From contig NC_054538.1 in NCBI RefSeq assembly GCF_017654505.1, positions 56,245,684 to 56,309,683 on the forward strand: 64,000 bases of DNA. Direction: 5' to 3'. The stretch comes from Polyodon spathula. Its lineage: Eukaryota; Chordata; Actinopteri; Acipenseriformes; Polyodontidae. Positions 15,840 through 51,800 of this stretch are shown here, in pieces. Position 1 is the stretch's first letter; every line of letters starts with the position of its first letter. The notes beneath the pieces are model-generated. The model was not told the DNA's origin. It saw only the letters and a list, made by a program, of their open reading frames with translations, and made no database searches. A program made the translations under genes and the position numbers.

Positions 15840-17470
15840 ACAATGCAATGTCCAGACAGCATTCTCCCAAAAGTTCCGTGTTTATTTTAAATCAGCAAAT
15901 AATAATAATAATAATCCACCCCTTTACCAGCAATGGTATCTGGGGGAACACAGCAGGTTACAGTCCTGTTCTAAACAAAAAGAAAACACTTCTAAACCAC
16001 AGTCCTCCATCCACAAAAATGTGTACATTTCCTTTGGGAATAACGATGACTGCTGGTGCTGTGCTGTGAGGGACATGCTCCGGGTTTGGTGCTGGCCCTG
16101 TGGCTGCAGCTCCTGCCTCTTAATTCTCCTCTACAAAACACAACAATAACAAAACACAAGCTCTGGCTGTATTAAGCTTTCAGAGCAAGGACGAGTACTG
16201 ACGTAGCTGCTTTCCCCTTTGTACCCCAAAACTTCTCCCCGCAATCAACCCGTCGCCATGGTTTCTCCAACAGAGGGCCGCCCTGCAGCAGATTGCAATG
16301 GAGTCCTTCCAGGTATGTGCAACTACCCCGCTCCCCCTAATATGGTCACCTTCCGGTTTCAGCCTACTGTCAAGGCTGCCCACCTAGGAGGAAGCATACC
16401 ACCAACCTTACACAGCGCCCTTTCTGGTAAGGAGGGAGATTTACAGTTTGAATTCTTCCTCTCTCTCTCACACATCTCACCCCTCAGAGTGATGCCGAAG
16501 GAACACTCGGCCAACTGTAAGTTCCCCAATGGATACCCCCTCCCTTGAAAAAAAAACAGCACAATGTTTCTCAGTGTAGTGTGAAGGGTTGCAGTGCCAG
16601 ATACCACCAAGTTATCCTGGCATTATTGTCCTTCATTGTGTGTAACCACCTTAAAGGAGCATGATCCATGACAAGAGTAAAAGAATGCCCCAGCAAGTAA
16701 TAGCGAAGGGCAGAGTGGCCCATTTGATGGCCAAACACTCAATGAGAAGTTAATCTCCCCTGGAGCCATTTTCTTGCTCATATAAATAATTTGTATTCTA
16801 CCCCATCCTCTTCTTGGGACAGGACCGCCCCCAGACCAACCTAGGAGGCATCGGTCTGGGGGATGAACTCCTTACTGAAATCTGGTAAAATAAGCACTGG
16901 GGCTTGGCAGTCTCCTTTTAATCGTATCAAAGGCCTCCTGACACTCTACTGTCCATTTAACTATTTTTGCAGCTGTCTTTTTGGTGAGCTCTACAAAGGG
17001 GTTAACTATGGTGGTATGCTCGGGGATTAAGCGGTGATAGTAGCCTGCTAACCCCAATAGCAATCTCACAAGCAGCTTGGTTCTCGGGATCGACATCTCC
17101 ATCTGGACTTCAGAGGTGATCAGCTTGACCCGGCCATTACCCATAATGAAGCCAAGATATTGGGTTTCCTGTTTGCCAAATACAAACTTGCCCAGATTAG
17201 CTGTCAGCCCCGCTTCCTCAATGACGGCTGAAAGTCTAATAATATGCCCTCTCCAGGTAGATCTGACTGCTGATGGAGTGTTAGGACCAGCTCGCAGTTT
17301 TCTCTTGTGAATACTCTGGGTAGTTGGAATTTGCCAGTATCTATTCGTCAGATCCAAAGTCCAAATTAACTGCGCTCCTCCCAGTCGGTCGAGGAGCTCA
17401 TCCATCCGAGGCATGGGATATGCATCAAATTTGGAGATGGCATTAACCTTTCTGAAATCCCGCCTCAATA
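15840..17470 (-). mobile_element. Minus-strand Ty3/Gypsy relic: reverse transcriptase with internal deletion, RNase H remnant, LTR-like 3' part
   Basis: The frame at 17468-16872 (198 codons) begins RRDFRKVNAISKFDAYPMPR and ends KIVKWTVECQEAFDTIKRRL, clear Gypsy reverse transcriptase and connection. The region expected to hold the catalytic Tyr-x-Asp-Asp is absent: the frame passes from QIPTTQSIHKRKL straight into RLSAVIEEAGLTANLGKFVF. Stop-interrupted RNase H-like pieces follow to about 16,560, and 15,840-16,550 looks like a minus-strand LTR. Not functional. Confidence 0.75.
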
Positions 17471-17605
17471 AAACTTTCGTGGAACCACCAGTCCACTCAC
17501 AAACGAAACTTTACGTGATGGTACCCATTAATAATATATATATATATATTATATATATAGAGTATATATTATAGAAATATATATATATATATATATATTA
17601 TCGAA

Positions 17606-17760: not shown

Positions 17761-19525
17761 TCTTTTCTACTTTCACCTGAAGAAGAGACCTTTGAGGTCT
17801 TGAAAGCTTGTGATTAATTATTGTTCAGTTAGTCCAATAAAAGATATCACCACTCTTTTTCTTTGTCTAATAATGTAGTTTGAAACACCCAACTCTTATT
17901 ATTTTAGTAGACCAGAATAATAAAGTTGTATTAATTTTTGTGCAAACAAAAACATTAATGGGGGAGCCGACTTGCTTCTTCATCTTCTTTAGATATTCAT
18001 TTGATGCTTGTCAACAGCTCTTTTCTCTTTTACTTGAAACTTGATGGGTCAACCCGGGTCTGAGGGAGAGGCTGAAAAACTTTGAGCTGAGCTTTGAAGA
18101 TGTCCTCCATGAGCAACCCAAGTTGTGTTTGTTTTTTGTTTTTTGTTTTTTTGTTTTTGATCATGTTGTAACGTCGTACACTTTGATGCTCAATGACCTG
18201 TGTTATCAATTTACATAAATATTTAGAGTTTCCCCAGAAATTCACTTCAGCCAGCTGTTATTTTGCTTGTTTTTATCCCTTTAATGTGTGTTGCTGAATA
18301 TTAACTTTTCTCTCCACTTTTGTGATCTATTTACTGTAAATACAATTTGTTTCGGGAAACAGGAATTAACTGTTCTTTAGGTTTTTGGAGATTGTGGACA
18401 GTTTGACTATGTTTTGCCTGTTTAGTGTATATCATTTTAGATTAGTTTACCACTCACGTGCTGACCTTAAAGATCTTACTTTGACAGTGAGAACCTTTTT
18501 CAGAAGCCAACTTTGTTTAGACACTCACTGTGTGACTGCTTGAGAGAGACAGATTTTTTTTTGTACATCATACTTCCTATGATTTTATTCCAAGTAATTG
18601 GGGAAAGTCTTTCCTTTTCCCAAAGAATCTTCCTTTGTGAAGCACACCCTCAAATAAAAAGGACTTCCTGTACTCCATGACTACTTCCTGAAGCTCAACT
18701 CTGACCCCAGCTGTGGCCTGATCTCATATGCCACACGAAAATGGCATTTCATTCATCAAGCCAGGGCTTGGCCAATATGATATGAGTAGTGCCCCTAACA
18801 AGCCAGGGAGGGCATAGTGGTTAGGATTATTGTACTGATTAATTTAAGGTTTAATTGAAATAACTAGATTATTTGGTTAGTTGCCAATTAATAGGTTTAA
18901 ACATGTGTACCAATTTAGAACAATTACACTTCAAATAATTCAATACAGGTGATGTTGTGATCAAGGAGTAGGTAAACTAAGTGGAGGAAATAAGACAATA
19001 GAAACAAAATATTTTAACAAAATAAACATAGCTAAAATAATCAAAACAAATACATGGTCAAACAGGGGTCCTAACAATGAAGTTTTGGGTATGCATCAGA
19101 GATTAATGGATAAATATCTGAAGAGTCAGAAGTACAGCTTGAAGAAACTAGCAGGCCATACTTTTAATCACAATTAGAGGTAGTGTAGCCATGATTATAA
19201 ATACAAAATCGATATGTTAATTGGAAGCATCACTTAGGCTACCTACACACACAGGCTAAATACGTTTGTGAGTTCACCAATTGCTCTTAATATGGTTTGT
19301 ATACACACACACTTCGGTTACAAAGGACAGCGACAACCGCGCTAGTTAATCCTTTTCAGAGCAAGTATCGAGTGCGGTTATTAATTTAGTTCGGTTAGTT
19401 AATGCGCACTAATTGTGTGTGTGAGTATTACAGCCGCACTAACAACAATTTGGTGCTCAGTGGATTTCTGCGCAACTAATGATGTCATTGTTTATCAGAC
19501 ATTTCCGTGTGATAAACATGGCTAA

Positions 19526-19603
<78 letters not shown>

Positions 19604-19930
19604 TGCCTGATGAGCCAAGTTAATTTTGTAATACTGATGAATAGGAAATTCATAACAATTGTAAATAGCGAATACATATAATACACTTTTTTTTTTTTTT
19701 TTACTTAATCAAAGTACAGTTGTATAATATTGTTGTAAGAAAAGAACATTGTATTTTTGGTTTTACAACTTAAATAAAACTATACGTGACCATTTGTATC
19801 CTTAAATGCCACGCAACCTCTGTGTGTTTTGGCACTCCGGGAAATGTCTCAGTAAAGCCGGCATAAATGACAAAGACTCATATACAACTCCTTCCCACCA
19901 GCCTTCTGGTTGGAAGATCACCCAAATTGC
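17761..19930. other. Non-coding stretch with retroelement tail and AT microsatellite
   Basis: The segment 17,777-17,850 (CTGAAGAAGAGACCTTTGAG, then CCAATAAAAGATATCACC) resembles the 3' end of a retroelement common in fish. A TAGTGGTTAGG fragment at about 18,815 may be SINE debris. (AT)n occupies 19,529-19,602. Confidence 0.35.
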
Positions 19931-20395: not shown

Positions 20396-20909
20396 TGGAA
20401 CCGCAACTCGTTTTTCCACCGATACCGAATGTCTCGTCTGTGTTTTGGCAGTCCAGGAAAGAAGGGCCGTCCCGACATTTACACATAGAAAAAAAAAAAA
20501 AAATTCTGCACAGTTTCCAAATGTTGGCAAGTATGTTACTGTACTTTATAAAACGTATTTCAAAAAAACTATTCTTCCTTTCACCTCCAGGGGCAGTAGT
20601 ACTGTTTATTCTTCAACACTGGCTGATCACTCTACTCTCGGGGTTACAGCACATCACTCTGCTGTGAGCTGATTAAACAATATATCACGTTTGATTATTC
20701 TTTGTTAGGAAAATTAGTAGCAGGGTGGTAGTATTTCTAACGTTATTTCTGATTGAAACTCGACGTGTTGTCTAAGTATTCTTTTAATTATTAATGGTTT
20801 CGTATCATTTCTGCTCGCTGTAGTTTCCAGTGGCTCTACGTTTGTTTATGGTTTCGATTGTGAATGCTACGAGAAAGCCTTCTGTTGTTGTTTTACTTTC
20901 TGATCCGTG

Positions 20910-21068
20910 ATGATAAATATTACATTACGGTGTAGAGGGCTGGCTCTTGTTGTGTTCTTGCTGGGTAGTGATTTTGTTTTGGGATGGTTGAACAACATTA
21001 AATCCGGCAGCACACAGCAAAGCCAACGGTCTATAACCTCCAGTTCAGATCAGAGTTGCTTCTGTCAC
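20910..21068 (+). CDS. ERO1B: ERO1B alternative (distal) first coding exon 1a with CFC motif
   Basis: An ATG at 20910 opens 53 codons ending ...QSCFCH, followed at once by a consensus donor (CAC|GTAAGTAT) in phase 0, the same phase as exon 1b. The N-terminus is a plausible signal peptide: basic MINITLRCRG, then a hydrophobic core LALVVFLLGSDFVLG. Human ERO1A ends its first exon region with a Cys-x-Cys just before its LDDCTC motif, and those cysteines pair with the two of the next segment. This exon has the same arrangement (C50, C52), and exon 2 supplies C61 and C63 in this isoform. Joined to exon 2 it would give a 486-residue protein. No in-frame stop intervenes. A GTG just upstream at 20907 is not a likely start. 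There is no transcript evidence, so use as an exon is inferred from coding potential, splice signal, phase and motif together. Confidence 0.72.
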
Positions 21069-21733
21069 GTAAGTATATTTATGCCATTTCCTTTTAAACA
21101 CAAGTTTGACATTTATTTGTTACAGTGTTATTGTAATTGAGCATTCAACTTTTCCCAATAATTCCTTGTTATAATGTAAATAATACTGAGTATTTAACTC
21201 TTCTAGCAATTTCCTCTGGCACATTATGTTGACGTCATCAATGCATCTCCTTAAAGTGACAGTGTCTGTTTTTGCTGCTATAGCAAGGCTTTCCGCAAAA
21301 CAGTTTTTTTTAAATTTGAATCTTTAGTTTTTTCTTACAAAATAAGAATATTTTACACAGTGTTAGTTAATGTTTGTTGAACACATATTATTTTTTTATA
21401 AAGACGTAAAAACGGTAAGCCATTTTAAATATAAAAATATTCATGTGGTATGGCTCACCCAAAATGTGGTTGTCGGTAAAAATAGTAAAGTACATGCATT
21501 AAATAAAATCGGAATTTTTTGCATTATATATATATATATATTAATGTCAGTCTACACACTGTGTCCTATATTATTTGCACAAAAAGCTGACTTGCTGTTC
21601 TGGCACTGCACTAAACAGATTCTTGTACTGTAAATCTTTACTGCTGCTATATCCTCACGTTCATTCCCTGGCATATATTATACAATGCCCTGCCATATTC
21701 AAATGAGCAGTGTTGAAACAGAGCTGACATTTA

Positions 21734-22790
21734 TTACACCGAACTGTGACGCAACATAACCACAAAGCTGAGCAAAAACAAATCTGGTAACTTGGCATTT
21801 TGGGCCTGAACCCATGCAAGCATGGAATCGGTGAGATTCTCTATACACTGGTCCAGATTTTGCCACAGTTCGATAAGTTTTGACCGCAGTTCTTTCACGT
21901 TGGCAGGTAGTGGTTTTTCATAATTGTTTATCAAGCTGTTCCCAGACATGTTCAGCAGGGTTCATGTTGGGACTGAGGAGTCCAGGAATGAAGTTGCAGC
22001 CCATGTTGTCTCTTTCAGGTAGTGGTGATTCTGGACATTCAGTATGTGGTGCTGTCTTCCTGCAGCTGGTGCAATGTAAACTGCAAAACCCCTTTTCTGC
22101 GGTACAATGGAATGAGATGGTTCTGAAGGGTAGCAATATAACGTGACGAATTGAGACATCTTTGCACTGAACCAAATCGCACTCCAGACCATGACATTGC
22201 AGCTACAGTGTTTTACTGTTGCTTTTAAGCAATCGTTCTGCAAATTAATCTCCAGGCCTCCTCTATACCCAAATGCGCCTATTTGAATGGAGTTGTTGGA
22301 ACTGGAATCCATCTGAGATCAGAACAGTCCTCCAAAACTGTAGAGGTCTGTCTGACATCTACCAGGCCCAGTGCTTTCTGTGCTGTACGTTGGCATGAGT
22401 GAGCATGGGTTTCTGTCAGGCCACTCGCCCGCTGCCCATGCTATCAGTCCCCATTATGCTTTATGTTGGTCATGGAGCTAGCAATGTTCACAAGGCTTTA
22501 TCAGAATGGACCTGGCAAACAAGTGCCCGTTGTGCACAGTTTGTGCCGGTCGATGGGCAGCGGTCACAATCTCCTGACGATACGTCACAATAATGTTATG
22601 CAAACGCCCATTTGACAGTCCAAGGTCTTTGGCAATCTGCCTCGCCTTTTACCAACAGTCAGAATGCCCAGTTACATGACCTTGTGAAAAAGGTGCCGTG
22701 TCACATGCACCTACTCTCTCAGGCATATTGTATACTCCTTCAGAGCGCCACAGTGCAGACGGCTGATATTTATACCACAGGTGTGGGTAT
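21734..22790 (-). mobile_element. Degraded Tc1-type transposase relic
   Basis: The minus strand carries, in shifting frames, SCNVMVWSAIWFSAKM, then LLSPNMNPAEHVWEQLDKQL, matching the catalytic core and the acidic third-residue motif of Tc1 transposase. Many frameshifts and stops. Confidence 0.7.
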
Positions 22791-24777
22791 TTCAGATGAT
22801 GCCACTATTTTTGGGAGTGCTGATTTTAATATTACAGGGCACTGGATGATAAAAACATATACTGTATAATTTCAGACAGCTGTTTTTTTGTCAATACATA
22901 TTTAGATTTGTGTCTTAGATACAAGTATGCAAACCGTTGAGGCATTAATTTGCAAATCACACTAAACTGGGGGAGTTACGTTAAGATATACTTGCTACAT
23001 GTATTTGGCTTTATATATATATATTCACACACAAGTACAAATTGAATGGACCTCATGTCCATTTATGGTATGTGGACAGGTTAAAACGTAAATGTCTTTA
23101 GCATAGAATGAAACACAGGTACTGCAAGTATTTTACAGACGATGTACAGATAGTAGAATGACGTGGAAGCTGAGTAAGAGTAGTTAGTGCATGGAACAGT
23201 TAAGTGGTAGCCATCAAAATCCAATCATCATATTCAATTCGATTGGGCTGCAAGGGACAACCTTCAGTGGAATAGACATATAACTTATGAATGCGTAATT
23301 GTGTACAAAAATGAAGCCACAGTGCTGATGGCTGAATTATCGTTCCTTTGTGCACAATGCTGTTACTGCTCTCCAAGGCCACTGAGGAATAGCATGTTCT
23401 TAATGTACGAATGCACAACATGAAGAAGGTATTGTAAGGAACCTGACATTTGAGGGCAAGTTTAAGTCTCTGTTACATATACACAGTATTCAACAATCAT
23501 TTATTCTGTCAATTCAAGTAAATTGTTATTTGCAGCATATTGTCATTATTAACATGTTTTGCAGCTTTAGTCAGATTTTTGTAGGGTATGTATTTTTATT
23601 GGAGCTTCCTGAAGCAATGATTTTTTTTGTTAGTTTTCGGCAATATTACATTGATGATAATAATGATACTAACAAAATGGCATATTTTTTCTATCAATTA
23701 ATAACCTCATTTTATCCAAAGATAGACACAAACCCCTGCTCAGTTGTGCGTAAGATCAGCCTTGCACAGAGCAATTCAGAGACATGTTTCAATTAACCTT
23801 AAAGCTTGAGGATTGCACTGAGGGAAATACATTCATGCCATTAATGAAATAAATTTGGAACACTGCTTTTTTTATTTTTTTTTATTTTAACACATAATAT
23901 ACATAATCAAACATATTCTGATCTAACCCTGTGGATTGTACACTTTATTATAACCTAGCTGCATTATAAAACAAAACAAAAATTAAACAGTGGGATTTGG
24001 GTGTTATTTTTTTCACTGAACATTGAACTACTGAAACTTGTACAGAACAACAATAGTGTTTCGGTATAAAAGATCGAGTCTTCATACTTAGTCTTCAGCT
24101 GCGTATCTATACAACACATTGCCAGATGTGACTGATCTTCTTGCATTGCATTTTTGTATAATTCTGACAAACTGTTTCAAATACAAATTGTTAACCTACA
24201 CATTAATGTGGTCTGGGCTTATGAGGGCCCTCCTACGTGTGTACAGTGGTTTTCTGTTATTAGGCGGAGATGGGATTGTGTTTACTAATGTACTGAAATG
24301 AATTAATAGTTTAGAGATGAGTTCCATAATAGAGTAATTACTTTTTTTTTTTTTTTTTTTTTTAAAGGATCTTAATCATACGTGGTGGTTTTGAGTTGTT
24401 TAAAACAACGGTTTTCTTTTTTGTTATTGAATTAAACGGTAATAAAATGTGTGTAATTGTGTTTGTTTTAGATATATTTTGTTATATTTCTAACCAGGGC
24501 TCTGTTTTTTCCAGGCCTCTCTGTAAGTAGATTCCTTGTAATGTTAAGTAATTTCGGTAGTGATTACGATGTCATTGTTTATTTACAACAATATCACTGT
24601 TCTTTAGTTAGGTTTTAGCTGCCTCTTTTGGTCATAGTACCGTGTCAAATTTGCGACTTTTTTGGGGGAAGGGGCTATATTTATTGTTTTTTCAATGAAA
24701 TACAAAACGATTTTGGTCTCCAACTTTAACTGTTCATGTTGAAAGTTTGGGCACAGACCACTTGTGATTTTAGACCG

Positions 24778-24796
24778 CGTGGTTTACTCTGATTGG
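24778..24796 (-). promoter_or_regulatory. Perfect ER stress response element (ERSE-I) upstream of ERO1B exon 1b
   Basis: The minus strand reads CCAATCAGAGTAAACCACG, that is CCAAT, exactly nine bases, then CCACG. This is the consensus ERSE bound by NF-Y plus ATF6 or XBP1. It lies about 370 bp upstream of the proximal ATG. ERO1B is a known unfolded-protein-response target, so position and identity agree. No such element was seen just upstream of exon 1a. Confidence 0.85.
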
Positions 24797-24825
24797 GTCC
24801 CTCGAGAGCCTCTATACAGTAGCCT

Positions 24826-24842
24826 CTGGAATTTGTAGTCCC
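24826..24842 (-). promoter_or_regulatory. Weak ZNF143/Staf-like site in the exon 1b promoter
   Basis: The minus strand carries ACTACAAATTCC, a partial match to the Staf/ZNF143 site (ACTACAATTCCCAG type), 30 bp downstream of the ERSE. The 3' half of the motif is degenerate, so this is only a candidate. Confidence 0.3.
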
Positions 24843-24946
24843 GCTCTGCACGGTTGTTGGGTTCTTTAACTGGATTTTGAGCGGAAAAAAACTACAAGTA
24901 TAAGACAGCAGGTGCTGGCCAGTTTGCTTCCATACAACTTTTATTT

Positions 24947-24956
24947 GGGGGCGGGG
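24947..24956 (+). promoter_or_regulatory. GC box (Sp1-type) near the presumed exon 1b start site
   Basis: GGGGGCGGGG in an otherwise AT-rich region, about 210 bp before the ATG and 150 bp after the ERSE. No TATA box was recognised nearby, so a GC-box promoter starting around 24,960-25,150 is inferred. Confidence 0.45.
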
Positions 24957-25167
24957 TCGTTGGAAAATAAGTGGGCTGGAAGTGACAGCTAAGCTGGAGT
25001 TGCTGCAGCAACACTGGAAGCTAATTGACTGGTTAGCTGTCACCGTGAATCACAGTAATCTTTGGCAGAAGGATAGCAAGGTGTGTGTTCGTACTGGAAT
25101 TATAAGTTTAGAAACTGACATCGGGAACATAAACGTGTCCCGTCTCCCAGAAACAGCAATTTACAGC

Positions 25168-25248
25168 ATGAGCAGACAGCACTGTGTAGTTCTAGGACTG
25201 CTGTCATCGCTATTTTTACGCATATTTCCCTGGGATACCAGAACTGAG
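25168..25248 (+). CDS. ERO1B: ERO1B exon 1b (proximal first exon, signal peptide)
   Basis: Encodes 27 residues, [20 protein letters not shown] followed by PWDTRTE, a short signal peptide like that of mammalian ERO1B, without the Cys-x-Cys of ERO1A. The ATG has A at -3. The frame is open upstream to a GTG at 24982 with no upstream ATG, so this ATG is preferred. The donor is GAG|GTCAGT, phase 0, weaker than the exon 1a donor because C replaces the purine at +3. Confidence 0.82.
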
Positions 25249-25282: not shown

Positions 25283-25372
<90 letters not shown>

Positions 25373-28300
25373 ATATATATATACCTGTGTAGACTGGTAA
25401 CAGTATTTTTTTGCACTCATACAGCCTAACAAAATGGAAAAGTGGAACTCGTGTTATCAAACTTTTGAATTCTGTAGGTACAGTACGTGTCTGTGTGCTG
25501 TATCTAGTGCTCTTTTTTCTGTCACTAATTACGGTGCCATTGACAGCATTTTAAAGGGTATGAAACTGGCGTGCTTTCAAGTTGTGTTTTTAATGTTAGG
25601 TTAATGGAACAAATAACTGTACAAATACAGTTAATGACAAATACTGTGAACTTATAGTAGTTTCAATTAACACTTTATAATGTACAATTCCTTTATATGT
25701 TAAAGTAGTATTAATTTATGTTTATTAAACATTACTGTCTGTAGAGTAAAAGCAAGCTGTGTTATTCTTTAACAGATGGTGCAAAAAAAAAAAAAAGAAA
25801 CAATATGGAACAAAATATCCCTCAGTTATATATTTTTAAAGGACAATAATAACTGTATCAGCTGCAACTAACCAAATTGATTAGCTCATGCTTTCACTTA
25901 TTAATGTGTGAGACAAAGCTCCACATTCAATTAAGACTGAATGCAAGGTCCTACAGTAGCTCCTTGTGTTGAGCAATCATTAGTCATGTATTTGTGTATG
26001 TATAACTGTTCTGTGGCATATGTCACTATTACAATTAGTTTAGCGTGGGTGGCCTCTTCTGGTCTGGCTCATGTTATTTTTCTGTTCTTTTACTATAATC
26101 CTTTTCAATTCCACCCTAAAATACAATCCCAATTCATTGGTGCCTGTCGTAGGTCATTCATTTTTTTAATTATTTTGTATTGACAGTAGTGCAGTTTTAC
26201 ATTATTGAAATTTAAACGTCACCCACATTGAAATGATGTCATTCGCCGACTAGAAATGGTATTAATCTTCAAGATTAATGTTTAAGAAGCAAAGCATAAA
26301 TGTAAAAAAAGTATTGCGTTTTCTCCTGCTGTATTTTTTATTACACATATCATTTTACTAGCAAGACCTGATTTTTTCTTGAAGGGCTTTAACTATGTAC
26401 TGTAACTATGTAAAAACTAAAATTATACAGCTTGGGGCATCGCATTTTTAGAATTCAACTATGGTGAAGAGCAGTGACAGCAAACTTATACCACAGTTAT
26501 TAAACCATATGCAAATATAATACAAGTAATAACTACCCCACATTTGCAAATCATATGCATACAGTATTTAGTATGTGTGTCTTAAACTAATTGTATTGTT
26601 CTCAGAGCCAAACAGCAGCTGTTTGTATGAGTAGTATTTTAGTGTTCCAGCAGTTTAAAATACCAAACCAATTTGAATTAATCGATGCGCAATCTGTGCC
26701 CTACATTTTGTAAAGCATGTAAGGTTTATATACATAGGAATACGTTCCGTGTAATGCTTATCATTCAGTGTTTTCTGACATCGAAAATATGTTTATATGG
26801 ATATTTTGGTGAAAATCACTAGCTTGGTTTTTGTTGTTTTGGGAAGAAAAAAAACAGACCTATTTACATTTTTTCAATTTCAGGAAATGCTCTAGAAATT
26901 GAATTGATAAGCGTTACATGGACCGAAGAACCATGGTGATGTTTCCTGTAACAGAAACAGAATTCTTCTCTGAGGTTTAGTAAGCATTCATGTAGTAAGG
27001 ACGTGTTTACAGTAACTTGCACTAACAGAAATGACTCTTGCACGTCCATCAAATGTGTTCTGAATGCCTCTAGTGTAGATAAGTCATTTACAATACCTTT
27101 TTTGTAACCCACAATTATTCTTCAGTCAAGTTCTTTTTTTCTTGTTTTTTTTTTTTTTTTTTTTTTGCATTGAGATAAAATGTTCATGTGCAATGCTTAA
27201 TATTTTGTTCAGCATACATTTTTTTAAATGTTTTATTTTACAGAGATGATGTATGTATTCTTTTCAAGTAGTGAAAATATAACTGAATTGTACGACCCAA
27301 GTCCATTTCAGCAAACCAAAGTGGTTGCTTTTAATCATGCATGCCTTGGTAGCGGTAAATGCTAATTAAGACCTTGTGTTTTATAGTTGACAGGTGTCTT
27401 AGATGACTGTTTCTGTGACATAGAAAGCATTGATGTCTTCAACAACTTCAAGATCTATCCCAAAATTCAGAAACTAATAGAGAGAGACTTCTTCAGATAC
27501 TATAAAGTAAGTTCCATAACACCTGGATCTTAAATAAATACATACTGAACCATTCCTGGCACAGTTTTACAAAGCCTGTACAAGTTCATGTAATTGTTAA
27601 TAATTGCCATTAATTCCTAAATAAGAAAATTCTGATCATAGAATAAAGGAGTAGCATATTGGTTTGTTTGCCATCAACATGCTAAATTGTATGTCAGTTT
27701 ACAGAAAACTGTTTTTTAGGGTAAGAAGATTATAGGGAGTATCCGTCTATTATAATCGCAAATATTCCCTCATACATCAGGAATTACCAGACTACAGACT
27801 GGATTACAGTACAAGTATAAACAGGGGTGGTGTACACAAATATATTCTGGATATCAAACCCATCTAAACTACTGTGATCTCCCTTACTTTAATCCTTACA
27901 TTTTCTATGGGGTGACAAAAATAGTTGTAATGCTGTGATGCTGTCTTAACATCATTCACACAATTATTAGTTAGTTTCATTTAGAAATTTGCACAGTAAT
28001 GCTCCATGAGAAATACCTAATGGCAACTGATTCAGGAGCTCTGTACATAAAAAGGAAATGTCAATTAAAAGCTAGAGATTCTCCTGAACCTCTAGTAAAA
28101 TTCATTAACTTCAAATATTGACTAAAAGTAAATTGGACTATCACCATTTCTATATCTGTAAAGCAGAGAACCAGAATGAAAACAAGCAATGCTAGCAGAC
28201 CCATCTTTGTAAGATCAAGAAATGGTGAACAGCAGAAGCAAACCCACGCAGTCTATTCACTACATTGTCCAAGCAGTAGAATTTATTCATATGCTTGTTA

Positions 28301-31300
28301 ATCCATCTTCATAGTCAATAATTTATACATGTTAGGATCAAACAAGAACAAACAATCAGTTTATTGCACATCATGAAAAGTGTCCCCTGCCAAGAATGTG
28401 GTTTTTATATTTTATTTTTTAAACCAAAATTTATTTGGAATGTATGTTTGTGATATTTTTGTATTTTAAAGCCTCTACATAAATTAAAAATGACAGAAAT
28501 ATGTGTCTTTAGCTATTACTTAGTTCAAATCTGTTACCAAAATAATAAGTAAATAGACTCCATCTTGTGTACTAATGTGGCTGTATAATATCTGCATATG
28601 GTTACCATATATTACTCCATTGCTTTTAATTGCCAGTAAATCATCAAATTACAATATGGAAATCATTTTTATTATACTGTAAATCTACAACAGAATGATC
28701 CTTTACATCCCTGACTGACAAGACTGTACTAATTCTGTCTGTGCAGGGGGAACTTTCATCAAATAATAAAAAACTCATAGTCTTTTCAATTTATTTCATT
28801 AACTGCTGCAGCTAGTGGTAGACATTAATTAATTCAGAAATATTAGTCAACACACAAGAGTAAGACTTGGAAAGTGCTGGGACTAAAACAGGAGTTGCCG
28901 GTCTGGACCTTACTGGGGTTTGTCGTTGGCCACGCTGTCAGGGTTAAAGAACAGGACCGAACTACTGTAATCTGACTGACTTTTGATGTAGAGCTAGTGA
29001 AAGACTCCAGAATGCTTCCTTGGGAGATGTGTTACAGCTGCCCTCTAGGGAATGGAAATAGAAAATAAAAAAAATACCAACTGTGCAGCCAGGCTTCTAT
29101 CTGCAGTAGTTGAGTTTCATGGGTTTGAAATTTTTAATTGGAGAAAGTGCTATGTGTCCTTCACACAGCTTTTAGTCTGACAGCTGAGTCCAGGTGGTTT
29201 GCAAGATTTGCGGCCACATATATCCATGAAACTTCAAAAAAGGTAAGCTAATGAGCACTGGTACACCGTTTTTTTTTTTTTTTTTTTTTTCTCTCCATAA
29301 AAATGAGAGTGGCCATTACCATTTTTCATTTGCAGATTTTTGCTTTGTCATATATACTGCAGTTCTGAAAGTAAAACACATAGGGGTATATTTTAATATA
29401 GTGAACTGCAGCAGAGCTACATGCTCTTTTAAAACTGTATTAGTGCTGTTCCTATGGTGCATTGCCCCAGTAAAGATTTTTCATGTCGGATAATGATGCT
29501 GCATTTTTTATTTTTTTGCAGGTAAACCTGAAGAGACCATGTCCCTTCTGGCCAGATGATGGACATTGCTCCATCAAGGACTGTCAAGTGGAACCTTGCC
29601 CAGAGGTATGGACATGGCTTCCTTTGTATCGCTTTACTCTGTAGCTGTCAGTGAGACGAGGAATTTTCCAGATACTTCAGTCTGAAATTCAAATTACGTT
29701 CCAGCTTGTTATGTCCAGATCAAAGACAATCATGTCTGCTTCTGCTGAATAAAAAAAAAAAAAAATCAGCTCGCGAAGGAACTATCAAAATCAAGTATAA
29801 ATTCGCATTCCGCTGTACCCACCTACTGTACTTTGGACAATTTAGTTGTCCTTTGAGCATGCTTTTATTGGCATGGTCTGGGACTACTTATTCCTTTGAA
29901 TCTAAAGTCCTTGCGCATACACATCTGTGCATTATAAGTGATCATGGGTGTCCTGAAATTGCTTTTACCAGGATGGACGATGAGGTGTATTTCAAAATGC
30001 AACTACTTGCATCACAGTGACAAAGTTATTTTGTGAGTATTTAAATGAACTAGCACATATCCCATGGCCCGTACATGAGGAATCAAATGAACTGTCAAAG
30101 TAAATCAATGCCCAAGAGAGCCACCATCCCTGGCACAATAAACGATTAAATAGGCTGTAGTTCCCTAAACACTCTTGATTTGTGTTTTACTTGCTTGCAA
30201 GCTTATTCAGTTATGTAAATGTGCTTTTAACATTGCACCATAGGTCCAGACACCAGTCAGTGAAGAACTGTTGACTTTGATGAACGTTTACACTGGTAAA
30301 AGCAATGTAGTTCCACATTCAAAATGTAGAAGACACTTTTGGTTTCTAAACAAACAAAATCCCTAACTGTAACGGCAGACTAAGTCTTTTTAAGCAAGGT
30401 ACGGTTTTAGTATGTTCAGCATGCACTTAAGAAAAGTGTTTTTTGCAACTTGTTGTCCAAGTTTGGCAAAGCAGTTTGTGCATGTAAGTGGTGTATGTTT
30501 GGGCCTTGTTTTACCCATTGAAACTCAAGTTATAGCTCACTGCAGATGAAAGTTTTATTGTTGCCTGCTGTTAGCCTGCGGTTAGCTGCTAACCTGATTT
30601 ACTTTGGAAAGTAGCTATTTAATTTTAATTTTGCTGTCCGCTGAGAGGGCATTGGAAGCTAACCTGAGAAATGAAAGCGTATCAAGAGTGGAGCAGTGCT
30701 TCTCAGATGCATTTATAGTTAATCCTGCCACATTTACTTTTTTATATGAAATAAACCATTACCTAACATTGGAAATAACATCCACATAAATTAACAGGGC
30801 AGAATTAAAAATGAACGACTTCAGAACTCCGAGGAAGTGCAGGAGATATGCAGGTGTTATTCCCTTGATATTTAGCTGGATTTCATTATGAATTTGCAGC
30901 CATTCTTTGAAAGTGTTACCTTCCACCTCTTTTGTTTACAGAGTAAAGTTCCAATGGGGATTAAAGCTGGCAACTACAATAAAGTAAGTGTTTGGTTTTA
31001 CTTTGAACAGCTGTTACTGCTTTTCTGTTAAAAGACTTGAATCGTAAGCATCTACGTCTAATGTATTCTTATTCAGATTAATTAACTTGCAGTGTTTAAG
31101 GAAACAGTGTGGCCCAGTGGTCAGAGTCCAGGGCTTGTAACCAGAAGGTTACAAAGCAGTTGTAAAAAGGAGGTGTAACCTTTATTGTTTCATTAACTAA
31201 ATTTAAGACACCTATTAGGAGGGTAAAAAAAAGGACATTTAAAGTACTACTGATATAATCCACATCCGCTCATGTCTTTCTTTGCTTCACAAGCTCTTAA

Positions 31301-34400: not shown

Positions 34401-37400
34401 TTATTTTGTACATTAACTTAACACCTTAAAGCCTGAATGTCATTCAAACTTCCATATTTTGCAGTATTCACAGGATACAAATACTGTAAAACAAACTGAG
34501 GATTGTGTGCAGGCTAATCAACTTGGAGCTATAAATAGCACTTTAAGGTAAGAATTCAGTTTCAGAAACTCATCACGTTGAAATATGTACTGCATATAGC
34601 GTTTTATTGTAATAAAAGTGGTCTCTTAAATGTGTTTTATTCATTTTATAAGGGTTATACATACTTTGTCGTTTTCTTAAGCAGATTGCGGAAAAAAAAC
34701 ATTCCTATATACTTTTATCTATTATGGTTTTTAGTAGCTTACATAGTGTTGACCTATGTTTTTACGCTGAAACTCATATTTCAGCAGAAGGCTGGGTTTT
34801 CTTATGTTAAGTATGGTACTGACTGGCCTTTGAAGATCACCTTACGCTTGTATCTAGCTTAATTATACTATGCCATAACTTTAATTAGTGATATTTTGTA
34901 CCAGATGTTCTGTAAATTGATCTCCCAAAGTAAAATCAGGTGACATTCAACCAAAGTTGTAAATTGTTACAACTTATACACATCCATTATTTGGTAGTAC
35001 AAAATACACTACAGAATATATAAGCAGAAATACACGAGAAGGTGTGGGTTTTACCACTGCAACCCATGTTTCAGTGGGACTATACATTTCTTTTTCTCAG
35101 TCTGGTAAACTGGATTTGTTTTCAGAGTTCTTGTTTAATTTGTTATGTTTGATTTAGGTTCTACATACAGCCGTTGTGGCACTAATGAACAGCTATGTCA
35201 ATATTTGAACTGCAAATTTTCAGTACTTACTTTGACAGACTGTGGAGAAGAGCCAACATTTACTTTTATTTTACGAGTACACTATGCATAGATAATGACT
35301 ATGCGTGCCCCTGGAAAGTACAGCCATGTGTTTCTTCAGTTATTTGAGGTGGAAGGGACAGGTTCTGAATTATTTGGTTGGCATTTATCTTCACAAGATT
35401 ATGAGTACAAATAGTAAATTACAGAACTTTTCCTGCAGGTTAGGTTTTTTTTTTGTTTTGTTTTTTAAGGAAGTATTGAAAACAATTAATTTTATAAACA
35501 GCATCTTATGAAATTAGTCATTTAGAGCAGGGGTTTTCAACCAGGGGTGCGCATACCCCTGGGGGTCGTGGGTATGCAGGATGATGAAATGCAAAAATGA
35601 AAGTGAAAGAAAATAATGATATTGAATAAAAATTAACAGTATTATATATTATCTCTAAACCACTGTGCATAAATATTTAAGTTTTCTTTAGCAAAGGTTA
35701 GTATAATATAATTTCAAAATGATCATCCACCTGTACACACATGTGATTTCCACTCCGAAATATTACTAGGTTGAGTGAAGCAGGCGTCTGGCTTCTGCTA
35801 TGGTGAGCTCTGCTCACAGCACTCTGCATTGCTCATGAACTTTGCACTTTTCAACTCGCTGTGTAATGGAATACTATTCGGTGAAGTCCAATCTTTCTGC
35901 AGTTTTTAGAAGTAAAAATTACAGTTTGATGGTTTTTGTTTTATTTATTAGTCGCGGCTGCGTTTTAGTAGCACCAATAGCATTTGGTTGAATGTGTTTT
36001 CGATGAGTACATCCAGATTATCCTGTGTATCGCTCCTCAAGGGGATACATTTCTTAATTACAAAAGAAAAATAAGCAGAAAGTGCAAAGCGACAAAGTTA
36101 TACTGAGTCCCTTTGGATCATTTTTATGTTGGCTTTAAAGTTTATCATTGTTAGTTATTATAGTTTTATCTTGAGGTTAATGTTTTTGATGTTGTAAACA
36201 TTTTAAATGGCACCCATAGAAAGCGAAGACGAATAATCTGAAGAGATTCCTAAATGGTGTCTTTTGATTCTGTGCATCTATAGACTTATATAAAAGTTTT
36301 AAGAGTAACTGTTAGGTATTCTGTCCTAAACCAGCGGTTTGTCAGTCCCAGACTTGTTGTGACATAAAGTAAACTTTGCTTTTTTAGTGTCTTTTATTTT
36401 ATTCGAGGACAGCAGCAACTGGGCTAAATTGCTTGGCCCCTTATTCTCCATTTATGCCATAAAATGTGTTAATCAGATTATTCTACCTTTTACTGCAACT
36501 GTGGTACCATTCAGTACAGCAAAAATTGTAAAGTGGTACTTGCGGTGAAACCTCCAGACCCAGAAGGGGTACAGTTTTAAGAAAAGGTTGGAACCCACTG
36601 ATTTAGAGGACAAGAAATTAACAACAGTTGTAAACATTTAGAAAACTTCAGTTACTGATGTACAGGGTGTCCACAAAGTCCTGTTACCCCCATGTTTTAT
36701 TTTCTACAGTGGTCTGACCCACAACTGAAACATGTGGAAGCATGATGATAACTGTATTTAGAAGTACTTTATTGTATTCAGTACAAGTATTTCACTGTAT
36801 TTAGATGCCCGGAGGATCAGTGTGAGAGCCATTTTCATGACAGGTAGTGATCTGTTGTAATGTTTCGTGAGACAGCTTCTGCAACATGGGTGGAGTGACG
36901 AGGCAAAATGTATCTCTGACAGCTTGTTTCAGTCAGACCAGCATTGTATTGCAAAATTCATCATAGGAAAGAAACATGGGGATAATAGGACTTTGTGGTC
37001 ACCCTATATATAGATATACACACACACACACACACACAGTGTCTATAAAAAGTCTACACTCCCTTTCAAAATCTTCACCTTTGTTGCTTTATAGCGTGGA
37101 ATTAAAATGCATTTAATTTTTTTTTTTTTTTCATTTAGCTACACATCCTATCACACAGCACAACTTCCAAGTGAAAAAAATATTCTAGAAATCTGTAGAA
37201 AATTAATTAAAAATAAAAACTGAAATCGCTTGGTTGGATTAGTATCCACCCACTTTGTAAATAGCAATCTCTAAATTAGCTCAGGTGTAACCAATCGCCT
37301 TCAAAATCACACACCAAGTGGCCGCCAACTGTGTTAAATTGTAGTGATTCACATGATTTCAGGATAAATACAGCAGTTCATGTAGGTTTCCTCTGCTGCG

Positions 37401-38883: not shown

Positions 38884-41694
38884 TATATATTTGTGTAATA
38901 GTAGTTATATATATTGGTATCATATTAAGATAGTGTGTGTGTGTGGTATGTGTATATAGATCTATAATCATATATATATATATAGTTTATATATTATATA
39001 AAGTGATGAGCATTAATCGAACGATATGGTTATTTTCCAATAATTAAAATATAATATACGTGATCTCGTTAAAAACGAAAAATATGGTTAATTTCCAATT
39101 ATTAAACACCGAAACCGACTTCAAACGATTAATAAACTGCACAATTTCAATCGATCTGTTACACTATAAAACTTCACGTTTTCTTTTTGGTCACTCATCA
39201 TCAATGTTTCTAAAATACTTGTTTTGTTTCATTTTAGCAATATGCACCTATATTAATATGAAGCATAACTCAATATTTTAAAATAAAACACAGTGCATGA
39301 TGGGATAGTATTGTATTAATTTCTGCTGTTCATTGCTCTGCTAGAAACTGTAACCAAACTAACTATTCTTGTGTAGACGCATTAAGCCTGACTAAACATG
39401 AAACAGTACTTCAGTGTGGACGCTTTGAGCTGGATTAATTAGAACCGTTTTGAGTACGGTTCTCTAGATTGGTTATGTAGTGTGGACAGGGCGTTTATTT
39501 AAAAATGGTTTCTGTAGTCGTATTGTTTGTATATTGGTAATGCTGCTTTAGAAGTGACTTCAGTCTATTTTTTGTAGGTTTGAAAGTGCTGTTGAAAAAA
39601 GTTGTTGATGTTCCAAAGAAAAACATTTAATCAGGAACCTTTTTGTGACTTTTTTTCCCCTAGGATATTATTAGAATAATCGTAATCAGGATTATTTACA
39701 AATGTGGAATCGATAATCTAATCTTGTAAAAGTGATAATCGCTCATCACTAATATACAGTATATGATTATATAAATAATTAGGGCTGTCACTCGATTTAC
39801 AATTTTTGATCGGTTAATTTATGGGCATTAGTTGATTAATCGGTAGATTCTTCCTTGCACAAGTAACAATCTTGAGGTGGCTATCCTGCTTAGTATTTCA
39901 TACACAAATCAGTTGAATCTAAAATAAATTTTAAAAGCAAAATATAATGCACATGGATGAGAATGGATTTTTTGTTTTGTTTTTCATGCACACATATATA
40001 ACCCTTTTTTTTTTTTTTAACATTATATTTAGGACTTCCAGGTTTTCAGCATAAAAAAAATTATAATCCTTATTTCTGGAACATGAATAATATAAACTAA
40101 TAAAAATTGGTATACATAAACAACTTGAACAGTAATGTAATATTAACAGTACTAACATTAATAAAACAAAATGTTGTAGTCGCAACTTGTGACATTTGTA
40201 TTTTTCCAAGCTGCAGCCGACATTGAGGATCACAGTACTTGAAATTTTAGAATAGACAAGCTCCTATTATTGCATGCGGCTCTATATTAATGACTTGCAG
40301 TTTGTTTTACATCTTGTTCTTTTAGCAACCAAAGTAAAGAAGCTTTTGTAGACTGGGCAAGGCATGATGATGCAAAGGACCATTTTTGCGAACTCGATGG
40401 TAAGTGTTTTGATTGTTTTTTCTTATCCATTATATTTAGATATTTCTTGTTGGAATTAACCAATTTTAGCCATGCTAAAATACACAGCTCCTTATTAAAA
40501 CATGAATAATTGTAATGTCCACAGTGCCCCTATTGCTTGGAGTGTGGGGTGTGTGATGTGATTAGGAGCTTGCTGGCTGCGCCACAATGACCCTTGCTGG
40601 TTAGGCCCCAGAGGAGACAAGGTGATCAGCCAGACGAGGCATCCCATTTCCTCCAGGGTTCAGTAGCTTGGCAACATCTGCTGCTTAGGTTTGTTTGGTG
40701 AACAGAAAGATTATACATTGCAATAACTCTTCCTCAGATGAGACATCACCTGATGCAGAATATGTGGACCTGCTTTTTAACCCAGAGCGCTACACTGGAT
40801 ACAAAGGACCTTCAGCATGGAGAGTGTGGAACAGCATCTACGAAGAAAACTGCTTCAAGTAAAATAAACTAATGAATTGGATCTTTTTAATTAATGAATT
40901 GGCCACAGGAAACATTGATACACATAAAGAATTCAAAGTAAAGGGCAGTTGGCCAAATGTATTCAATTTGCGTAATTTTTTGTGACTAGAAATTAAAAAT
41001 GTTCATGTTGGTAACATTACAAATAAAATAGGCACAGTTTCAAGTCTTAAATTACCATTATGAGTCGCATGTTAATTGTTTTGGGAGTTTAATAGCCCGT
41101 GACTAGTAAGGGGGTTAGAATCTGTTAGCTGGCAACATTTGAATTCATTTGCATTGCAGTTTGGTATACGGTGATCCAAACCTGGTTAGCAGTACAGCCC
41201 TACAACTGCCCTACAGCCACAAGTATTGAGAGCATTACATACCTATGGTATCAAACTATAGATTATACTATATAATAATATACTTTTCCAGTACTGGGTG
41301 TATGGTATGTTAATTAAATCCCAACCCATATTTACTATACGTACAGCATGCATTTCTCATAATGTATTTTTTAATCCTAAAAATTAATTGGGCTGTAAAT
41401 TGGCTAGTGTGTTATAGTTTAATAATGGGCTTTGTCTTGTTTCAGACCCAGATCTGTTTACCGCCCCTTAAATCCACTGGCACCAAGCAGAGGTAAATAT
41501 CTAGATTATTGGCTGTATGTGTATGTCTTGGCTCCAGCTGTGGTAAGGTACAGTGTTGCATTGGTAATTGCTTTTGAATGTTGCGCCCAGAGCTGGCAGA
41601 CAGTTGTGTCCCTCCTTTTCTTGCCAAATGATGTTTGTAAAGTCATAGCAATTCTGTTCATTACAGGCAATGTTTAAAAATATACAGCTTCAGG

Positions 41695-44700: not shown

Positions 44701-45800
44701 ACTGTACTATTATTATGTCTTCCAGTAGACTGTTTAAAATCTAAAATTCTAGGTGATGCAAAACTTTTGGCCATAGATGCAGACCGATTAGTTTTATTTA
44801 CAGGTGTCTTCCCTGGGAGGGATCCAACATAATTTGCACTAATAGGAAATTGGTGTCAATTGAATATCATTATCATTTTTAAATATCCAGCCATGATCTC
44901 CACAATTACAGTTTTTGCTCAGCCTTAGATAATTGTGGAATAAGGTTAACTTTGTAAATAAAGTCTATACAAACTTTGAAAATGTATGGTTTTAACTTGT
45001 ATTTGTATTTTTAGTTATAGCGTTAGGGATTCATTGTTTAATTGAGGTAGTGATTCGGTTAAAAACTGGTGGTAGATAAGTGTGACAGGGTGGCTTGTGT
45101 GGATACGTCAGGCCAGGAAGAGAAACACACAGTGGTGAATGAATTACGCTGTTGCACCTGTTTATTGAAAATAAACGGTTTAAACAGAAAACAGAAAACA
45201 GAACCCTGAACAAACAAAACAAACTGTGGACGAACACTAAGCAAACAAGTATCGTGCAAGGCAATGTCAGCACAAGTAGCAATTGTTATTTGAGTTTACA
45301 GATTTTACTTTGCTCTCTCTTCCATTCTTCCTGAACACCCAACCCAGAGTGAGTGATTTTTGCCTCTAAATATACAGCTGTGCTGGGATTCAGTTACTAA
45401 TTAATCATTCACTTGAATCCCAGCACGTGAACTAATTTGTGCAATCCCCGTGCACACATACTAATACACACTTTATCTGCATGTAAAGTGATTGTGCAAT
45501 CCCTGTGCCTAAATACAACTGTTTATTTTAAATCACCCGTGATAACCCATAGAATACAAACATATGCTCGGGGTGGGGCATCCTGCCACAATAAGTCATA
45601 AGTTAATTTATGTTTTGTTATATTTTATTGTAATTCTTTTTTTTTTTTAAATTCCTTTAGGAGACGATGATGGTAAGTAAATCACTTTTTTTCACATTCT
45701 AAGAACATTTAAAGAAAAGCCTCAGTACAGTAGAACCCTCTTTATTTAACTGTCCCCCAAAATGTAAAGTACAGTACCATTTGGATAAGCAACTATCCAA

Positions 45801-48800: not shown

Positions 48801-51800
48801 GCAGGTATTTGGATAAGTAGCTGACTTCACAAGTTTTTAATTTTATTTTTGTACACAGGTCTGTGTCTTGAGAAAAGAGTGTTTTACAGACTGATTTCTG
48901 GGCTCCACACAAGTATCAACATACATCTCTGTGCCAAATATCTGATACAAGGTAAGTAAAGAATAACCTTTGTCTTATCTTTTTTTATTCTCATGATTTT
49001 CATAGACATGTATACTCAACATTACATAATTTTGTCTTTCTTTTTTAAATGCAGAGAGCTGGGGAAAAACTACATGGGGAACAAATATGAAGGAGTTCAG
49101 ACATCGTTTTGATCCTGTTGAAACTAAGGGAGAAGGGACCAGAAGACTTAAAAACCTGTACTTCTTATACTTGATAGAGTTGCGTGCTTTATCCAAAGTA
49201 GCACCATACTTTGAACGGACCATTGTGGATTTGTATACCGGCAATGCAGAGGAAGATGCAGCTACAAAGGAATTACTTTTGCAAGTTCTTAATGAGACAA
49301 AGTAAGGAGACAAATACTGCTTAATTTATTTATTATTCATGTAAAACAAATACAGATATTCTACAGAAATTCAAGGAAAAAGTAGCAGCTAAGATTCACA
49401 ACTATTACAGCATCACCTTTTTATGTAGTGCACTAGCATAGATATTAGGGATGAAAATAAGACCCCTATTGCATAGCAGCTTCACCCATATCAGGTTTTA
49501 GTATGGGCTTGATTAGCCACAGTGTATAGGTAACAAGCTCAGATGTGTCTTTGTGTCTTAAAACCAGGACTGGATCAAACGTTATGCAATGGAAGTCTAA
49601 TTTCCATTTCCATGTTCACACGTTACTGTTAAAATTATAAAAATCTAGCTGTCACAACAAACCAGCATTATTTTAGAGGGATCCTAGTTTGTGAACTATA
49701 ATTACAAAAGATTACAAAACTAACTTGATCGAACTTGTAATAACAATAATTAAAAGCAGAGTCCTTCCTTGTTTGTTTATTTATTCATTTGAATTAATCC
49801 CTTTCAAATAAATAAATAAACTAAATCTTATAAGTGACGCAGTGACCAATTTCAAAATACATCTTTACACTATCAGAACAGGTGGTTACATTGGAGGAGA
49901 CAGAAAAATGAGGAGAACTCTCGTAATGGACACTGAAAAGGTTAAATGTTCTATAAAGGATATTGGGTTCACATAACAAGGAGTATGTTACATTCTATAC
50001 TGTAGTTCTAATGAAGGTTAAATCTGCTTCTTTCAATAGAGCATTCCCTATGCATTTTGATGAAAAGTCCATGTTTGCTGGAGGCAAAACAGAAGCAAAG
50101 ATATTAATGGTAAATGCACTCATTTCAATTGGGTATAATTATTTAATTATTGCACTTTGTGTTTGCCTTTTAAAATATAAAAACCTAAAAAACACATAAT
50201 ATTTAAAGAATACTGCAACCGTAATCCACTTTTGCTTTCTTAGGAAGAGTTCAGGCTCCATTTTAAAAATATATCCCGTATAATGGACTGTGTTGGCTGT
50301 AGTAAGTGTCGGTTATGGGGTAAGCTTCAGGTATGTTATCTCTCTTACACCTTTTTATTTATATATATTTATAATCTATGATAAGTGCATGCAGCTTCAC
50401 TAAAAATACATGCTTTCATGTGGAATTTTAGGAGAAATGTCTTGTATTCCAAACTGTATTTCATCCTGGTCAAATCCAAATCATGGCAAGACTATTTTAG
50501 ACAATAAAACAAATTAATGACTATATGGTAATTCGTTAGCTCATTCTAACAAACAGGCTTCCCTCAGTCTTGTGTGAGTGGTTTGCCATTGGCTTGTACA
50601 GGTGGACATCCCTGTACATTGCTACCCTTGGTAACGGTGAACCGGTGGACCAGTACCTCATGGTTCAGAGGTCGTCGACCTGGGACAAGGTTACCATACC
50701 ATACCGACCCGGTGGTAAAGTCACCGAACCAACCTAGGCAAGCTTGGCAGATGTTTTTCCTGCCTGGGGCCAGAGTATGCCACAAAGGAACTGGTGGGGC
50801 TACAAGCGCAGATTGGCAACAGGAGGACAAACTGTCCAACCCCACCTCTGATGAGGTGGGTGAAGAGGAGCTGGCAGAGCTTCTACCACTGATCAAGAGG
50901 GCCACTACAGTCTTGCAAGTGCCCTGGCATATAAATGTGCACAGGAAGTACCTGCAGTTCGCTTTTCAGGGAACAGCGTATGGGTTCCGTGTCTTGCCAA
51001 TGGACCTCTCTCTAGCTCCCCGTGCCTCGAAGTGCATGAAACTTATCCTTGCCCTATTGAGACTCATAAAGGCATCAGATTACTCAGCTATCTGGACGAC
51101 TGGCTCATTTGTGCCCAGTCTTCAGCACAGGCAGAGGCCCGTATGGAACTTTTCACTGGCCACCTTCAACGGTTGGGCCTTACAGTGCATCATGGAAAGA
51201 GCCAGCTCACGCGTTCTCAGACAGCCTCCTATCTAGGAGTGTGCTTGGACTCCAGGTCCATGCTGTCCACTCTGTCGGACAGGAGAGTGCAGAGAATAGC
51301 CGCATGTTTGGAGCTTTATCAGCTCAACAGTGCTCACAGTAGTGACATTCCATTGACTTCTGGGCCTGATGGCAGCAGCTTCCCAGACCTTTCCTTTGGG
51401 TCTCCTGCACATGCGCTCTCTGCAGGCCTGGTTCAACAGCAGGGTTTTTCAGCCCACGTTGAACCGCTACTGTCTATTGACAGTGTCTTGTCACTGTCTT
51501 AGGAGAGAGTCCTCAGCGCCTCAGAGTGGAGTCTTCACCCCAAGATGGTGAGCCTCATTTGGGAGAGCAGAGATAGATCACTTTGCCTTCCAGGAATCAA
51601 CCCACTGTACCCTCTAGTTCTTCATGATAGGAGGCGGAGACCTGCTGGCAGTAGGTGACTTGGCACACCAGTGGCCGAGGCAACTACTATATGCCTTCCC
51701 ACTGCTTGCCCTTCTCTCACTGTGTCTGGAGAAAATCAGTCAGGACCAGGCCATTGTGCTCTTAGTAGCCCCTCATTGGCCCATTCAACCCTGATGCAGC

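Follow-up and report, generated by a model that had tools for sequence, protein, structure and literature searches.

Two alternative first exons of paddlefish ERO1B offer a choice of an ERO1A-type cysteine pair

Results

The ERO1B gene of the paddlefish

The DNA analysed here is a 64,000-nucleotide stretch of the genome of the paddlefish, Polyodon spathula (contig NC_054538.1, positions 56,245,684 to 56,309,683; hereafter, the window), and it contains a complete ERO1B gene on the + strand, from 20910 to 54166. The gene carries a real pair of alternative first exons, 1a and 1b, which offer an exon-level choice of the cysteine pair found at the N-terminus of ERO1A. It comprises 15 coding exons, one first exon being counted, and a 12-base microexon, and all of its introns are GT-AG. 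The coding features are as follows (C-x-C, two cysteines separated by one residue).

20910..21068, + strand: exon 1a, alternative first coding exon, with a signal-peptide-like core, a linker and SCFCH (Cys50 and Cys52 of the 486-residue isoform); identical in P0001
25168..25248, + strand: exon 1b, alternative first coding exon, signal-peptide-like, without C-x-C; similar to reedfish P0024
27387..27506, + strand: exon 2, whose C-x-C (Cys61 and Cys63) is the second one in the 1a isoform
29522..29605, + strand: exon 3
30942..30983, + strand: exon 4
34465..34547, + strand: exon 5
40326..40399, + strand: exon 6
40738..40858, + strand: exon 7
41446..41492, + strand: exon 8
45661..45672, + strand: 12-base microexon GAGACGATGATG between exons 8 and 9, adding four residues; required for the exact match to P0001
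47780..47806, + strand: exon 9 (27 bases)
48859..48951, + strand: exon 10
49055..49301, + strand: exon 11
50040..50109, + strand: exon 12
50244..50330, + strand: exon 13, containing CVGCSKC, which we take to be the inner active site
53430..53563, + strand: exon 14
54106..54166, + strand: exon 15, coding part including the stop codon

The product spliced from exon 1a and including the microexon has 486 residues and is 100% identical to the database protein P0001, named “ERO1-like protein beta isoform X1 [Polyodon spathula]”, which matches the Pfam ERO1 family (PF04137) over residues 75-474 (E 4.4e-125). Among the matches listed none is named ERO1-alpha, most are named beta and some have no informative name; where exons were matched by both human proteins, the E-value was better for ERO1B than for ERO1A. 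The identification as ERO1B given in an earlier note on this DNA, made from the letters alone, is supported.

Two mutually exclusive first exons

Exon 1a has an ATG, 53 codons, a hydrophobic core and SCFCH as its last residues, and it ends at the donor CAC/GTAAGT. Exon 1b has an ATG with an A at -3, 27 codons, a hydrophobic core and no C-x-C, and it ends at the donor GAG/GTCAGT. Both donors are in phase 0, and both reading frames stay open into exon 2 across its acceptor at 27387 (TTTTATAG/TTG). The coordinates, start codons, signal-peptide-like cores and in-frame phase-0 donors listed in the earlier note all proved exact. On a vertebrate matrix, the 1a and 1b donors score 8.3 and 7.6 bits, within the range of 3.8 to 12.5 of the other 14 ERO1B donors. 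Use of 1b as a cassette after 1a was considered and rejected, as joining 1a via the AG at 25165-25166 to position 25167 onward leads to a stop codon. The two exons, which both keep the frame into exon 2 but cannot follow one another, are therefore mutually exclusive first exons. A long TA repeat (25288-25375) starts about 40 bases past the exon-1b donor; it could differ in length among animals and affect 1b splicing.

The window was also scanned for an ATG followed by a hydrophobic core (at least 2.6) and a phase-0 donor (at least 7.5 bits), which returned exactly two candidates on the + strand, 1a and 1b, and two unrelated ones on the - strand, looser thresholds giving 3 to 8 and 3 to 6, respectively. 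At the stricter setting, chance would yield 0.09 candidates in the 6.3 kb intron (300 Markov sequences), but the thresholds were picked with both exons already in view, so the scan is suggestive only and insufficient alone for exon 1b. It is conservation, as read from the protein comparisons below, that bears the main weight for the reality of both exons.

The 1a-type N-terminus across vertebrates

The N-termini of 127 protein clusters were compared (120 listed of 3533 passing in one search, 120 of 3593 in another that largely overlapped it, and four from a third), taken from a protein database clustered at 90% identity. The feature scored was a C-x-C occupying residues -4 to -2 relative to the start of the exon-2 sequence, the anchor itself requiring the exon-2 cysteine pair. 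Exon 1a of the paddlefish is identical in the Polyodon database protein, and the protein of Acipenser ruthenus differs from it by four substitutions and one gap over 53 residues. A C-x-C precedes exon 2 in four of the five entries from non-teleost ray-finned fish (paddlefish, gar and two from one sturgeon; not reedfish), 7 of 10 from amphibians, two of three from chondrichthyans and four of the six remaining contig entries. The coelacanth has it in P0021 and is counted by that entry alone, because P0095 fits the rule only via an apparent intron read-through. Teleosts have it in 38 of 74 entries, the others being 19 fragments or short sequences, three without the anchor and 14 C-x-C-free sequences that start with Met. 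Of the 27 amniote clusters none has it; two of them lack the anchor, four are short, and the starts of some look odd and are probably mis-modelled. The motif reads CFCH in 38 cases, CLCH in 8, CGCH in 7 (frogs), CFCQ in 3 and CFCL in 1 (P0095).

These counts support the C-x-C N-terminus as the old form, found in sharks, coelacanth, frogs and ray-finned fish, and an exon 1a open only in this species, which the earlier note had named as grounds for refuting its reading, is not what was found. Complete intronless 1a forms are present in four “lgn” contigs of 2070 to 2601 bases (P0010, P0013, P0015 and P0059), a source that we take to consist of assembled public reads. Given that the introns of paddlefish ERO1B total more than 30 kb, such contigs are most simply spliced RNA, which would mean that the 1a-to-2 junction is used.

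The exon-2 cysteine pair is kept in 122 of 122 anchored entries, as the anchor requires, five entries having no anchor. Its motif is C-L-C in 25 of 25 anchored amniote entries, and in the 95 anchored entries outside the amniotes it is C-F-C (94) or C-Y-C (1); the exceptions are two contig entries with C-L-C and mammal-like N-termini. The substitution of C-F-C by C-L-C in amniotes, the group without 1a, may be a single change.

N-termini of the 1b type

Met-starting N-termini free of C-x-C appear as numbered isoforms in the reedfish (P0024, X3), the elephant shark (P0064, X2), Spea (P0067, X2) and four teleosts (P0042, P0066, P0068 and P0077), and further teleosts have them with no isoform number (P0078, P0096, P0104 and P0107). 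Both kinds of N-terminus are found in the gene models of one species, the frog Leptobrachium leishanense (P0037, with CGCH, and P0061, C-x-C-free). Paddlefish 1b aligns with the N-terminus of the reedfish (Erpetoichthys calabaricus, bichir family) with a score of 42, where shuffled sequences average 17.9 and 0 of 2000 shuffles reach it; to judge by this match, exon 1b is conserved between the two, whose divergence is the deepest ray-finned split. A transposon origin of exon 1b was considered and set aside in view of the matching reedfish N-terminus.

The 1b N-termini of teleosts are alike among themselves (Denticeps with Coilia and with Cyprinus, 0 of 2000 shuffles), and that of the carp, used as the sole query, retrieved four proteins from 15 candidates (three cyprinid, including the query, and Denticeps, E 1.7e-4), none of them beyond teleosts. 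The proteins of reedfish, elephant shark, frogs and amniotes all switch sequence at one and the same position, in most cases just behind a Q or an E. Beyond the reedfish, amniote exon 1 included, this protein switch position and the usual terminal Q or E are what argues for homology of 1b, which is not demonstrable there from the N-termini themselves. Exon 1b may be as old as the jawed vertebrates, given the elephant-shark isoform with a C-x-C-free N-terminus. The suggestion in the earlier note that an ancestral exon persists beside a derived one holds for the age of the C-x-C N-terminus, and “derived” may be the wrong word for 1b, which could be equally old.

Control regions and an endoplasmic reticulum stress element

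Two features lie upstream of the first exons.

20401..20900, + strand: putative exon-1a promoter region, a local CpG peak
24778..24796, - strand: perfect endoplasmic reticulum (ER) stress response element (ERSE), CCAAT-N9-CCACG, lying some 370 bases before the ATG of exon 1b

Exon 1a is preceded by 500 bases with 18 CpG and an observed/expected ratio of 0.99 (window median 0.34, 95th percentile 0.74). The ERSE upstream of exon 1b, which is new in this analysis, is the single match to the consensus in the 64 kb on both strands, with 0.043 expected per window (300 Markov sequences). An element with this consensus is bound by XBP1s and ATF6 (PMC8301375), and in man XBP1s and ATF6alpha induce Ero1beta, the PERK branch Ero1alpha (PMC3971451). 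The ERSE is consistent with a role of exon 1b as a start that is induced by stress and that corresponds to the promoter of amniote ERO1B.

Commoner motifs in the window were uninformative: 33 matches to the hypoxia response element, 23 to ATF4-type sites and 52 to the antioxidant response element. A palindromic cyclic AMP response element, TGACGTCA, lies at 21230-21237, about 160 bases past the exon-1a donor (the window has two, with 0.32 expected), and one match resembling an unfolded protein response element is found in the intron at 23159; neither was built on.

The predicted cysteine hairpin

In the 1a form a C-x-C is followed by eight residues and a second C-x-C, an arrangement that aligns with CFC-QVSGYLDD-CTC of 3ahq and reproduces the ERO1A spacing exactly. 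The claim of the earlier note that exon 1a supplies two cysteines upstream of exon 2 at ERO1A-like positions is thereby confirmed, as is its statement that exon 1b and amniote ERO1B lack them (none in the 27 amniote clusters). The first C-x-C of ERO1A presumably ends just before its exon 1/2 border, as in paddlefish 1a, and the exon carrying it is, we assume, the only first exon of that gene. Paddlefish ERO1B, known here from sequence alone, differs from ERO1A in having the hairpin exon as one of two. Amniote ERO1B resembles the 1b form in its short C-x-C-free N-terminus joined to exon 2; unlike the paddlefish gene, it has this start alone among the 27 clusters, and its exon 2 reads C-L-C instead of C-F-C. 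Genes with alternative promoters and first exons likewise have mutually exclusive first exons that are phase-matched to a common exon 2, whereas the piece exchanged in ERO1B would add or remove a disulfide pair in a redox enzyme.

In inactive human ERO1A the four cysteines form the disulfides Cys35-Cys48 and Cys37-Cys46, which stabilise an N-terminal β-hairpin linking two helices (PMC10241878), in line with the two disulfides that the earlier note had named. The 1a form, with the same C-x-C spacing, should build the same hairpin, its predicted disulfides being Cys50-Cys63 and Cys52-Cys61. The 1b form would be unable to make it, and the exon-2 C-x-C would be left without these partners; candidate effects are a looser redox control, or mixed disulfides and dimers formed via the spare cysteines. 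For human Ero1beta, whose regulation is loose, both dimers joined by disulfides and mixed disulfides with PDI and ERp44 are described (PMC3971451). Hansen et al., in the same paper, except Cys35, Cys37 and Cys46 of Ero1alpha from the conservation of cysteines within the vertebrate branch; in the proteins compared here, equivalents of Cys35 and Cys37 are available to non-amniote ERO1B through a 1a-type N-terminus.

Neighbouring repeats

Intron 13 houses a retroelement remnant (50550-52676), GC-rich relative to its surroundings, in which the frame 50864-51499 matches a reverse transcriptase (PF00078, E 2.9e-7); two adjoining frames tested against Pfam gave no match. Upstream of the gene, 16875-17510 on the - strand has a weak match to the same family (PF00078, E 1e-5), under the curated cut-off. 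A GC-richer block between exons 1a and 1b (21700-22850), two frames of which were tested and had no Pfam match, looks like what we presume to be a decayed DNA transposon.

Discussion

The explanation that we consider probable, with some reserve, is that in jawed vertebrates outside the amniotes ERO1B begins with one or the other of two first coding exons, which exclude each other, have their own promoters and give clamped and unclamped forms of the enzyme, and that amniotes lost exon 1a. Exon 1a would provide the ERO1A-type N-terminus, whose C-x-C would pair with that of exon 2 in a two-disulfide β-hairpin tying two helices of the oxidase. Exon 1b would provide a short, unclamped N-terminus, with the exon-2 C-x-C unpaired or paired otherwise, and the nearby ERSE would make this form stress-inducible. 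Amniotes, having lost exon 1a, would be left with the unclamped form alone, which is the ERO1B known from work on man. Direct support comes from both paddlefish exons and their frames, the wide occurrence of the 1a type, the reedfish match of 1b and the stress element. We infer the separate promoters, the use of 1b in the paddlefish and the exon borders in other species. A true loss of 1a in amniotes, as opposed to mere non-annotation, the formation of the disulfides and any effect on activity are presumed.

Several observations weigh against this explanation. The census rests on the proteins, not the DNA, of other species, so that exon borders and promoters there are deduced, and it is weakened by the 19 fragmentary or short teleost entries; four of the 14 C-x-C-free teleost starts (P0056, P0075, P0116 and P0117) look like gene-model artefacts. 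The reedfish peptide behind the score of 42 was trimmed by eye at an internal Met, 23 residues past the annotated start. Paddlefish 1b is no better than shuffles against Callorhinchus, Leptobrachium, Cyprinus, Coilia, Takifugu, turtle and ostrich (P 0.14 to 0.75) and weak against Spea (P 0.04) and Denticeps (P 0.07). Protein searches gave no paddlefish or sturgeon 1b form among the matches listed, where clustering at 90% could mask one, and the 1b donor, with C at +3, departs from the best consensus. The CpG peak before exon 1a is not unique in the window (19201-19700 reaches 1.18 and 39001-39500 reaches 1.19), and the region before exon 1b is moderate, with 13 to 15 CpG and an observed/expected ratio of 0.55 to 0.63. 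Ten motif patterns were scanned, of which the ERSE is one; its match is in reverse orientation and, being single and in one species, is no proof of function. Structure predictions of the 1a form (P0001 and 34 sequences) and the reedfish 1b form (P0024 and 29 sequences) reached a mean predicted local distance difference test score (pLDDT) of 42 and 47, respectively, too poor to use.

Alternatively, 1b-type starts could have been gained independently by lineage, since a C-x-C-free form would result wherever a promoter arose in the long first intron and its transcript was spliced to the phase-0 exon 2; there would then be no single ancient pair, with a loss of 1a in amniotes in addition. Paddlefish 1b is clearly similar to the reedfish only, the teleost 1b N-termini resemble one another and not clearly the paddlefish, and signal-peptide exons hold little information. 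Parsimony argues against independent gain, and so does the switch position that reedfish, elephant shark, frogs and amniotes share, mostly behind a Q or an E; we nevertheless regard such gain as a serious possibility, if not the likely course of events. That the paddlefish seldom starts from exon 1b or retains it as a fossil, only the CFC form being made, seems improbable to us: the sole Polyodon form among the matches listed is indeed 1a and the donor GTCAGT is below the best consensus, but the frame is open, the ATG has its A at -3, the reedfish match is conserved and a perfect ERSE lies nearby.

The two starts could instead differ in transcription control only, the hairpin being lost without effect on the enzyme. 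The mapped regulatory disulfides of Ero1alpha, Cys94-Cys131 and Cys99-Cys104, lie elsewhere (PMC3971451), and human ERO1B functions without the hairpin; yet a C-x-C before exon 2 has been retained from sharks to frogs, and C-F-C became C-L-C in all 25 anchored amniotes, the group without 1a, in what may be one event. We judge an effect-free exchange somewhat unlikely. A more far-reaching proposal, and one that we hold to be quite doubtful, is that ER stress switches ERO1B from a clamped, tightly controlled form (1a) to an unclamped, loosely controlled one (1b, driven by the ERSE), in a system as old as the jawed vertebrates that amniotes fixed in the stress position; if true, this fixation would explain the loose regulation of mammalian Ero1beta. 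A regulatory switch between the 1a and 1b forms is, in any of these versions, something that we infer.

The earlier note had known of no description of such a pair, and none of alternative ERO1B starts was found among the papers listed from the literature searched, subscription papers being largely outside it. Automatic annotation already lists numbered isoforms, so the exons are not unseen, only unremarked as far as found.

The cause of the weaker control of human Ero1beta compared with Ero1alpha is unsettled (Hansen et al., PMC3971451). Several non-amniote lineages encode equivalents of Cys35 and Cys37 in ERO1B, the paddlefish as an optional exon, and its exon pair amounts to a matched experiment set up by nature, in which the same enzyme comes with or without the hairpin, and makes a good and cheap test case for what the hairpin does. 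ERO1B function read from mammals misses a form that is recorded from sharks to frogs. In mammals this cysteine pair is kept only in the sister gene, and the two starts of ERO1B may give different built-in controls to an enzyme that makes protein disulfides.

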